From Pseudohongiella acticola (GTDB taxonomy: Bacteria > Pseudomonadota > Gammaproteobacteria > Pseudomonadales > Pseudohongiellaceae), in assembly GCF_001758195.1 (NCBI RefSeq), contig NZ_MASR01000001.1:124001-188000 (forward strand): a DNA stretch of 64,000 nt. The letters run 5' to 3'. The notes beneath the pieces were generated by a model. It saw only the letters and a list, made by a program, of their open reading frames with translations, did no database searches and was not told the origin of the DNA. A program made the translations under genes and the position numbers. The first letter of the stretch is position 1; each line of letters begins with the position of its first letter. Shown here one piece after another: positions 47,897-54,682 of this stretch.

Positions 47897-47984
47897 GGTG
47901 AGGTGTCCGAGAGGCTGAAGGAGCACGCCTGGAAAGTGTGTATACGGAAACGTATCGAGGGTTCGAATCCCTCCCTCACCGCCA
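47897..47984 (+). tRNA. tRNA-Ser (anticodon GGA)
   Basis: An 88-base class II tRNA with acceptor GGTGAGG/CCTCACC, anticodon loop CTGGAAA giving GGA, a long variable arm (GTGTATACGGAAACGTAT), T arm GAGGG-TTCGAAT-CCCTC and encoded CCA. A TATAAA at 47874-47879 with a GC-rich discriminator is the likely -10. Its last 19 bases begin the first 188-bp repeat unit. Confidence 0.96.
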
Positions 47985-48390
47985 AATTTAATAACGCAGG
48001 TGCACAATCGGCCTGCTGTCCCCGCAAAGAATGATCCAGCCAGCCCGGGAGGGAGGCGAACCCGATAGAGGGTCGAAAAGTTGCGCAGCAACTTAAAACG
48101 AGCGCGTGAGCGCGAAGCCCAACGGGTCAAACAGCCCCGAAGGCTGTTTGATTAATCCCTCCCTCACCGCCAAATTTAATAACGCAGGTGCACAATCGGC
48201 CTGCTGTCCCCGCAAAGAATGATCCAGCCAGCCCGGGAGGGAGGCGAACCCGATAGAGGGTCGAAAAGTTGCGCAGCAACTTAAAACGAGCGCGTGAGCG
48301 CGAAGCCCAACGGGTCAAACAGCCCCGAAGGCTGTTTGATTAATCCCTCCCTCACCGCCAAATTTAATAACGCAGGTGCACAAGCGGCCT
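47966..48390 (+). repeat. 188-bp tandem repeats containing the tRNA-Ser 3' end (rtT-like)
   Basis: Two identical 188-bp units (47966-48153 and 48154-48341) and a partial third (48342 to about 48390). Each starts with the final 19 bases of the tRNA-Ser gene, from the T-arm to CCA. Within a unit are a 7-bp hairpin (48078-48094), a GAGCGCG direct repeat, and a 9-bp hairpin just before the next unit (CAAACAGCC with GGCTGTTTG, 48128-48150). The arrangement matches the 178-bp rtT repeats after tyrT in E. coli, which also carry 19 tRNA bases, but the sequence is unrelated. A 21-codon frame (48031-48096, again in unit 2) is on the tRNA strand; translation is not supported by a good ribosome binding site. 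Confidence 0.9.
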
Positions 48391-52741: not shown

Positions 52742-54682
52742 ATGAGCTACCAGGTACTTGCCAGAAAATGGCGCCCCCAGAACTTCTCTGAAATGGCCGG
52801 ACAGGTGCATGTTCTGCAAACGCTGACGCATGCGCTTGAGCAGCAGCGTCTGCATCATGCCTATCTGTTTACAGGCACGCGGGGCGTTGGAAAAACCACA
52901 GTGGCGCGTATACTGGCCCGCTGCCTGAATTGTGAGCAGGGCATTACCGCGACACCCTGTGGGGAGTGCAACGCCTGCCGTGAAATCAGTGAGGGCCGGT
53001 TCATCGATCTGATTGAGGTTGATGCTGCGTCGCGCACCAGAGTCGAGGACACCCGTGACCTGTTGGACAATGTGCAATATGCGCCAGCGCGCGGGCGATT
53101 CAAAGTCTACCTGATCGACGAAGTTCACATGTTGTCCAGCCACAGTTTTAACGCCTTGCTTAAAACGCTGGAAGAGCCGCCCGAGCACGTGAAATTTCTG
53201 CTGGCGACAACGGATCCGCAGAAATTGCCGGTTACGGTGCTGTCACGTTGCCTCCAGTTTCATCTGAAAAACCTGGCCCCGGCGCAGATCGTCAATTACC
53301 TGCAGTCGGTGTTGGCGGCAGAGCAGATCGATTATGAAGAAGATGCCCTGTGGCAACTGGGTCGCGCCGCGGCTGGCAGTATGCGTGATGCGTTAACGCT
53401 GCTCGACCAGAGTATTTCATTTGGCGGTGGCAGTGTGCAGGTGGCATCGGTGACCTCATTGTTGGGTACGCCTGACCATGCCGCTGTGTTTGCTTTTCTG
53501 GAGGCGCTGGCGCAACGTGACGCAAACAGCCTGATGTCTGCGGTCGCTGCCTGCGCCGAAAATAACCCGGATTACAGCCGCCTGCTGGAACAACTGCTAA
53601 GCGTGTGCCATCGTCTGGCAATGGCACAGGTCATGCCGGATGCCATCGATAACAGCGAAGGAGACCGGGAACAGATACGAGCGCTTGCCGGCGCTTTCGC
53701 AGCGGAAGATGTGCAATTGTATTATCAGGTATGCATGCAGACCTTGCAGGATATGCCACATTCGCCGGATGCCAGAATCTGTTTTGAAATGGGCCTGCTG
53801 CGAATGCTGGCGTTCAGTCCTGATGTGTTTGCGGGTGCACAATCGTTGTCAGGTCACGAAAAAAAAAAGCCTGAACCCGCCGCAACAATCACTCAGCCCA
53901 GCGCCGGCCTGAGTCCGGAGCCGGCGGCAGACACCGATGAAACGCCAGCAGCCCGACCGGAAGCCGAGCGACAGCCGGCAAGAGAGCCTCAGTCTCCACA
54001 AGAGCCTCAGCCCCCACAAGAGCCTCAGCGTGACAAAGAGCCTCAGCTTGAAAAAGGGCCTCAGCGCGAAGTACCGCCTCAACCAAACACGAACCTTCAG
54101 CCGAAAGAAGAACCCCGGCAGGAAGAAGAGCCTCAGCGCAAACAAGAGCCTCAGCCCAAACAAGAGCCTCAGCCCAAACAAGCGCCTCAGCCGGTAGCAG
54201 AGTCTCAACCGGTAGCAGAGTCTCAACCGGCAGAAAAGCCTAACACACAAGAAAAGCCTGTCTCCGCCGAGCCGGCATCGCCGACGTTGGCGGCCGGGGC
54301 AGACTGGTTCACCCTGGTGCAGCGATGTCAGTTGTCCGGTATCAGCGGCAATATCCTGGCCAATTGTGTTCCGGAATCTGTTGTGGGTGACGCCTACGCG
54401 CTGATACTGGATGAGCAGCAGAGCGCCTTGTATTCAGAAGACCAACAACCCAAAATTGCGCAGGCGCTGAGTGAATTGTTGCAGCGTCCGGTCACAGTAA
54501 TGATTCAGGTAGGCAGTTTGCCTTCGGAATCTCCGGCTCAACGGCGACGGCGGGAAAAGCAGCAGGCCATAGACGAGCTGCATCATCGATTTAATACTGA
54601 TCCGGGCGTGCTGGCGCTGATTAGCGAATTTGATGCCAGAGTGGACCAGGAATCATTGCAGATCACCGGCACTACAACCTGA
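52742..54682 (+). CDS. dnaX: DnaX, DNA polymerase III tau subunit (with likely gamma product)
   Basis: Clamp-loader ATPase and organiser of the replisome. Walker A G-T-R-G-V-G-K-T is at 45-52, zinc Cys are C64, C73, C76 and C79, and the DEVH box is at 126-129; domains I-III end near 370. An A10 run at 53859-53868 lies right after domain III: a -1 shift reads one Ala codon then TGA, giving a gamma-like product of 377 residues. Beyond it comes a linker with 14 hexapeptide repeats (415-498) and the alpha/DnaB-binding tau domains up to 646. Confidence 0.96.
   Translation: MSYQVLARKWRPQNFSEMAGQVHVLQTLTHALEQQRLHHAYLFTGTRGVGKTTVARILARCLNCEQGITATPCGECNACREISEGRFIDLIEVDAASRTRVEDTRDLLDNVQYAPARGRFKVYLIDEVHMLSSHSFNALLKTLEEPPEHVKFLLATTDPQKLPVTVLSRCLQFHLKNLAPAQIVNYLQSVLAAEQIDYEEDALWQLGRAAAGSMRDALTLLDQSISFGGGSVQVASVTSLLGTPDHAAVFAFLEALAQRDANSLMSAVAACAENNPDYSRLLEQLLSVCHRLAMAQVMPDAIDNSEGDREQIRALAGAFAAEDVQLYYQVCMQTLQDMPHSPDARICFEMGLLRMLAFSPDVFAGAQSLSGHEKKKPEPAATITQPSAGLSPEPAADTDETPAARPEAERQPAREPQSPQEPQPPQEPQRDKEPQLEKGPQREVPPQPNTNLQPKEEPRQEEEPQRKQEPQPKQEPQPKQAPQPVAESQPVAESQPAEKPNTQEKPVSAEPASPTLAAGADWFTLVQRCQLSGISGNILANCVPESVVGDAYALILDEQQSALYSEDQQPKIAQALSELLQRPVTVMIQVGSLPSESPAQRRRREKQQAIDELHHRFNTDPGVLALISEFDARVDQESLQITGTTT
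53858..53874 (+). promoter_or_regulatory. dnaX slip site for gamma production
   Basis: In frame the site reads GAA AAA AAA AAG CCT GAA. After a -1 slip on the A run, the next codons are GCC and TGA (53872-53874). E. coli uses A-AAA-AAG followed by one codon and TGA at the equivalent place. Upstream there is only a weak Shine-Dalgarno-like AGG; a 6-bp hairpin (ACTCAG with CTGAGT) occurs about 24 bases downstream. The 10-base A run could also cause transcriptional slippage. Confidence 0.7.
53984..54235 (+). repeat. 18-bp coding repeat, 14 hexapeptides in the tau linker
   Basis: Fourteen consecutive hexapeptides of the form E-P-Q-x-x-x occupy residues 415-498 of DnaX, with near-identical copies (EPQPKQ twice, ESQPVA and APQPVA). 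The unit GAGCCTCAG is preserved in many copies at the DNA level. Confidence 0.85.

Follow-up and report, generated by a model that had tools for sequence, protein, structure and literature searches.

The window analysed here is a 64,000-nt stretch of the Pseudohongiella acticola genome (assembly GCF_001758195.1, contig NZ_MASR01000001.1, positions 124,001–188,000 of the forward strand), and the element in question is a tandem array directly behind a tRNA-Ser(GGA) gene, all on the + strand. The tRNA gene, with its CCA encoded, occupies 47897–47984 (RF00005, 52.3 bits). Unit 1 (47966–48153), 188 bp long, opens with the 19 bases that form the tRNA 3′ end; unit 2 (48154–48341, 188 bp) is 100 % identical to it at a spacing of 188 bp, and a partial third copy (48342–48390) consists of the tail and 30 nt of spacer, with 98 % identity over 49 nt. 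The 19-mer AATCCCTCCCTCACCGCCA is found at 47966–47984, 48154–48172 and 48342–48360. Repeat analysis confirmed the two identical units and partial third copy described in a first-pass annotation of this DNA, and the 19-mer positions agree with the CCA ends that it had placed at 47984, 48172 and 48360. The Tandem Repeats Finder score of the array was 843, the next best array in the window scoring 178; the copy number is that of this assembly. Tail identity over 19 bp, where the criterion is 18–19 bp, and the position directly behind a tRNA gene place the array in the class of tRNA-linked repeats (TLRs), which includes Escherichia coli rtT.

Each unit opens with a tail copy (A); spacer B and arm C come next, then the T-loop-like hairpin D, whose end reads GG(T/G)TCGA, and a hairpin core (E), with the next tail behind it. 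For unit 1, spacer B spans 47985–48045 and holds a weak hairpin at 47996–48016. Arm C, complementary to the tRNA tail, lies at 48046–48056 (the identical arm of unit 2 at 48234–48244), hairpin P2 at 48058–48076 and the core at 48078–48151, comprising P3 (48078–48094), P4 (48102–48113), P5 (48118–48126) and P6 (48127–48151). When the stretch from the tRNA CCA to the next CCA was folded as RNA, the predicted energy was −69.6 kcal/mol (z −4.16; none of 200 shuffles as low). In this prediction the first tail copy, 48154–48172, is the 3′ strand of a closing helix, P1, pairing with the arm up to the CCA and enclosing P2 and the core hairpins; the second tail copy is at 48342–48360. Hairpins were predicted as the first-pass annotation had claimed, but more than two per unit: the fold is a closing helix with the tRNA tail and several internal hairpins. 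In the window P2 ends in GGGTCGA, a variant form of GGTTCGA, the T-loop sequence; many relatives have GAACC...GGTTCGA behind the arm. From its sequence, the unit can be read as a tRNA 3′ half with hairpins inserted into its T loop and its own complement in front.

Further copies were sought in the same genome and genus. A DNA search of the window's own genome found units behind tRNA-Ser(GCT) (two full and one partial) and tRNA-Ser(TGA) (one full, one truncated). R1, a covariance model built from genus units alone, matched the structured part of the window's unit from arm to tail at 48043–48172, with a second copy at 48231–48360, at 134.7 bits, a score to be read with the membership of this unit in the training set. 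In the same genome R1 added a unit behind tRNA-Phe and a weak match (27.2 bits) elsewhere; all strong further copies are tRNA-linked, and the lone weak copy follows an apparent tRNA 3′ fragment. This weak copy (L051, G000:C1:1051488–1051613, minus strand) has the order displaced tRNA 3′ fragment, terminator-like hairpin and weak unit with the same tail; no whole tRNA gene was found at the locus, which might mark the distal boundary of an integrated island. Across a set of relatives the DNA search gave matches in 17 of 28 genomes, including 14 of the 15 from the genus, and R1 matched all 15 Pseudohongiella genomes, one of them (G001) by a weak match only. The genus units sit behind Ser(GGA, GCT, TGA) and Phe tRNAs, each with the tail of its own tRNA or a decayed version of it.

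The first-pass annotation had raised the possibility of an assembly artefact. Units inside arrays are near-identical. Arrays as such are not solely artefacts, because the one-contig genome G008 carries three non-identical units behind tRNA-Ser(GCT). Separately, at one Ser(GGA) locus (L020, genome G009) adjacent units share their tail and, nearly unchanged, their spacer and arm, but differ in their hairpin cores.

To assess the predicted fold, 19 of the 30 genus units, behind four tRNA types, were aligned from sequence alone. RNAalifold predicted 37 pairs on this alignment. Over 34 named pairs, pairing held in 95.8 % of 641 cells, falling to 32–46 % when the partner was slid by 1–3 columns as a control. 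Changes on both sides were present in 18 of the 34 pairs, with 98 double-change cells against 30.7 (SD 4.4) after shuffling (none of 500 shuffles as high), although these counts overstate the number of events because the aligned units are related. Pairs with double changes were distributed over P1, the tail helix (5/7), P3 (5/8) and P6 (7/9), while P4 was invariant. The number of further pair types was not above that of shuffles (30 versus 27.2; 50 of 500 as high).

The relationship between arm and tail was examined across 47 rows, corresponding to 46 distinct units. The arm was fitted better by the tail of its own tRNA than by the mean of tails from tRNAs for other amino acids in 38 of the 47 rows (Wilcoxon p ~1e-6), and the same was seen in 37 of 47 when a wider arm region was used (p 1.5e-6). 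The motif GTTCGA was present within 38 of the 46 distinct units, compared to 1.3 expected from letter shuffles, at loci that were found by models containing the motif. Trees of the hairpin core grouped units by tRNA, with 6 label changes versus 16.2 for shuffled labels; this core includes a few tail letters, and a shorter core without the tail gave 7 changes versus 15.6. Labelled by genome, the same core trees required 16 changes (21.3 shuffled, minimum possible 12). The clustering of cores by tRNA type indicates that units mostly travel with their tRNA, and strong exchange between tRNA loci inside one genome is accordingly not favoured.

The first-pass annotation had proposed searching related genomes for repeats that open with a tRNA end, and such repeats were found in the genus and the class by DNA search, by R1 and by RF00391, the Rfam model of RtT RNA. 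Among sampled genomes of the class, R1 matched 46 of 232, including the window's genome. RF00391 matched 62 of the 232, with 16 above its cut-off and the window's genome absent under strict filters. Counted from the two lists, 37 of the other 45 genomes matched by R1 were also matched by RF00391. Besides the window's locus, 29 R1 loci were fetched; 28 lay downstream of a tRNA, and 25 had a tail copy (at most 260 nt away, with at most three mismatches in 16), the exception without a tRNA being a locus that begins ~100 nt ahead of the match at a contig edge (L076). Of 30 RF00391 loci fetched, a same-strand tRNA was present in 29 and a tail copy in 26. Across genus and class loci, tail copies occurred behind tRNAs for Ser (GGA, GCT, TGA, CGA), Tyr, Phe, Gln (TTG, CTG), Glu (CTC, TTC), Arg (ACG, CCT, TCT) and Pro (TGG); Lys (TTT) and one more Arg (ACG) host are known from named contigs, and one unit lies behind Leu(CAG) without a Leu tail (L152). 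In a sample of the phylum, 24 of 199 genomes matched; 13 lay outside the class, and 12 of these 13 belong to one family. Six phylum loci were read and five had a tail copy, including both out-of-class loci (L270 and L272), which lie behind tRNA-Ser and have exact tail copies.

TLRs of E. coli tRNA operons have been on record since 1978, without a known function according to PMC8144298, which cites Rudd 1999 and Egan and Landy 1978 for them. That paper counts 22 E. coli TLRs at ten tRNA or rRNA loci, each repeating 18–19 bp from the 3′ end of the tRNA or rRNA ahead of it, and notes that a claimed role of the tyrT TLR in starvation recovery was withdrawn. RtT members also occur in Pasteurellaceae (PMC4986893), and rtT-like elements turned up among enterobacterial attenuator candidates (PMC2965389). 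In a 6.5-kb search, R1 found all four units of the E. coli tyrT operon, each match ending at the CCA (35.8–39 bits, E 3e-10 to 2.5e-9). It matched the E. coli rrnB TLR weakly (16.4 bits, E 0.0008) and gave nothing convincing at two other E. coli tRNA loci, the argX operon and serV. Conversely, RF00391 aligned to the window's units over its full length (1–130) with a CCA end, at 48033–48172 and 48221–48360. The reciprocal matches support the first-pass annotation's suggestion of the same architecture as E. coli rtT: the units of this group share with RtT RNA a complementary arm, GGTTCGA (GGGTCGA in the window's own unit), hairpins and a tail. As with E. coli TLRs, which number one to five per locus in the account used here, several units follow one tRNA. 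The window differs from these in having a host tRNA other than that of tyrT, another hairpin core, a lineage outside Enterobacteriales and no terminator-like site (G+C hairpin plus T run) on the + strand between 47700 and 48600, the region around the array; and from RtT RNA in following tRNA-Ser rather than tRNA-Tyr and in its low RF00391 score, which is taken up below. The best RF00391 score among the genus loci tried was 29.1 bits. An Rfam scan of the window locus at the gathering cut-off listed the tRNA alone, and matches to sX4 and a plastid 3′UTR were rejected as below cut-off and sitting on the tRNA-Ser gene, that of sX4 extending into the spacer.

Other processed RNAs of E. coli provide points of comparison. 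TLRs behind three rRNA operons are described as transcribed through readthrough, with forms of ~173 and ~115 nt, and the mapped 3′ end of the rrnB TLR lies 3 nt behind the tail copy (PMC8144298). These RNAs, RrA, RrB and RrF, are reported to bind Hfq and CsrA in vitro and, like the array, are TLRs; in the same source they follow 5S rRNA, between two terminators. 3′ETS-leuZ is similarly an RNA cut out of a tRNA transcript, but it pairs with RyhB and RybB, and the passages of PMC8144298 drawn on here describe no tail copy for it.

Taken together, we consider it probable that the array, as a member of the TLR class, is transcribed along with the tRNA into a structured RNA whose CCA end resembles that of a tRNA and which tRNA 3′ processing cuts out. 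RNA polymerase would continue from tRNA-Ser(GGA) into the repeats. Pairing of tail and arm C would close each unit into a helix with a free CCA, resembling the acceptor/T-arm stack of a tRNA, and the enzymes that mature tRNA 3′ ends (RNase E and exonucleases) would cut behind each CCA, giving the tRNA and RNAs of roughly 130–188 nt. Copies would multiply through unequal recombination and would mostly be inherited along with the tRNA gene. It is plausible that the tail copy serves as a processing site and that stable small RNAs arise from the units; if the RNA has a function, it would most likely act as a small RNA linked to growth or as a buffer in processing. This reading builds on the repeat, the shared predicted fold with its compensatory changes, the tendency of arm to match tail and the class-wide association with tRNA 3′ ends.

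Several points weigh against it. We infer the transcription and processing of the array, as well as any function of its RNA. The own tail was the best of all tails in just 10 of the 47 rows and was not above the mean of other-amino-acid tails in 9 of 28 Ser rows and 1 of 5 Gln rows; compared with letter-shuffled arms, the arms had a median z of −1.5, with z below −2 in 16 of 47. A terminator-like site lay between tRNA and unit in 18 of 47 rows (0 of 6 Tyr rows), so those units would need readthrough, as the TLRs of rRNA operons do. Tail copies were absent from 4 of the 29 R1 loci and 4 of the 30 RF00391 loci fetched in the class, and the loci were picked by models containing the tail helix and GGTTCGA, so that finding these features was favoured. 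RF00391 scored 18.5 bits in the window, below its gathering score of 45 (E 0.87 in a search of this genome alone), and at a loose threshold (E up to 10) also matched three unrelated control genomes. Lastly, a strand test gave 47 G-U versus 30 A-C cells (p 0.07, the cells being non-independent); this is not significant, so RNA is not told apart from a DNA hairpin.

Upstream, the array is flanked by an ABC-2 transporter gene and queF, and downstream by two genes for PQQ dehydrogenases. No integrase was present among these four flanking genes, the rest of the window not having been scanned for integrases. By reading, the start of the gene downstream of the unit in one other genome (G014) resembles that in the window. 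A further tandem array, of 18-bp units, lies at 53983–54230 and is possibly a repeat within a protein-coding gene.

tRNA 3′ ends are usual sites of integrases, and the unit might act as DNA, its copies of the tRNA end and T loop being spare attachment sites for tRNA-targeting integrases or leftovers of integration. In several gammaproteobacterial metagenome-assembled genomes (MAGs), units do lie at attachment-like sites behind a tRNA-Phe 3′ half. One 97-kb MAG contig (G265:C6) carries 17 matching stretches, all 17 on the + strand; 11 places with a tRNA-Phe half were listed, eight of them preceded by a common leader that carries two TTAGCACACT-like repeats. The order at sites on this contig (L255–L259), and also in genomes G259–G263, is leader, tRNA-Phe 3′ half, CCA, terminator and unit; in a variant on the same contig, the tRNA-Phe half is joined at GGTTCGA straight to the hairpins. 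Behind one site, a 453-aa open reading frame (L257:17567–18928) has weak Pfam matches to phage integrase families, below curated cut-offs. An integron-like gene-cassette reading of the tRNA-Phe rows was rejected in favour of integrase attachment sites that carry a tRNA-Phe half, which these sites resemble more, and a too-loose pattern search for the expected left-hand junctions of these rows gave nothing firm. The strand test, which does not significantly favour RNA, also leaves room for a role as DNA. Against this, ordinary genes flank the window's array, the cores track tRNA type, and P3 and P6 covary, which an attachment site would not need. The core motif was present in 25 viral stretches, none of which scored as a unit (best 15.7 bits, E 0.049), and a phage-borne unit was rejected on the same search. 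We regard a role as DNA as unlikely.

Less likely again is a neutral by-product, in which fold-back copying at a hairpin behind the tRNA gave an inverted copy of the tRNA end, slippage and recombination keep the array, and the RNA has no role. At tRNA-Phe loci such as L261 and L263, the tRNA 3′ half, terminator and arm C form, by reading, a single long inverted repeat with the terminator loop at its centre, as fold-back copying would leave, and the arm could therefore also pair with the tRNA's own 3′ end. The near-identity of array copies fits this explanation too, as does the lack of a known function for E. coli tRNA-operon TLRs in PMC8144298. However, P3 and P6, which are not tRNA-derived, keep their pairing through double changes, and the layout recurs across the class and at two loci outside it.

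We rate lowest a convergent architecture unrelated to E. coli rtT: the unit core and host tRNA are unlike those of E. coli, the RtT match is below cut-off and part of the R1 score on the tyrT units comes from tRNA-derived ends, so that a shared ancestry of the hairpin cores is not proved, but R1 finds those units with E ~1e-9 and the two models choose many genomes in common. The first-pass annotation's view of an independent case is thus not supported, and independent origin was dropped as the leading view after the class searches with R1 and RF00391 and the match to the tyrT units.

A broader proposal than co-transcription and tRNA 3′ processing of the array can be put forward tentatively, as possible but short of probable. 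TLRs would be one phylum-scale family of tRNA-mimicking RNAs in which a copied tRNA 3′ half holds a hairpin cassette in its T loop and the complementary arm is rewritten together with the tail behind each new tRNA, giving each unit a matched, tRNA-specific acceptor end.

The array of P. acticola is a real, well-formed member of a known and unexplained class, and the comparative facts on the class are new. To these belong the reading of the unit as a tRNA half with a split T loop, the covariation of its helices and the tendency of arm to fit tail across tRNA types. Occurrence of the layout behind Ser, Tyr, Phe, Gln, Glu, Arg, Pro and Lys tRNAs, with arm and tail tending to match the host tRNA, widens the question from an E. 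coli oddity to a general feature of tRNA transcripts in the class, and the covariance model R1 reaches members that fall under the cut-off of Rfam. The finding makes the role of the tail, the arm and tRNA maturation in these repeats open to clear tests.
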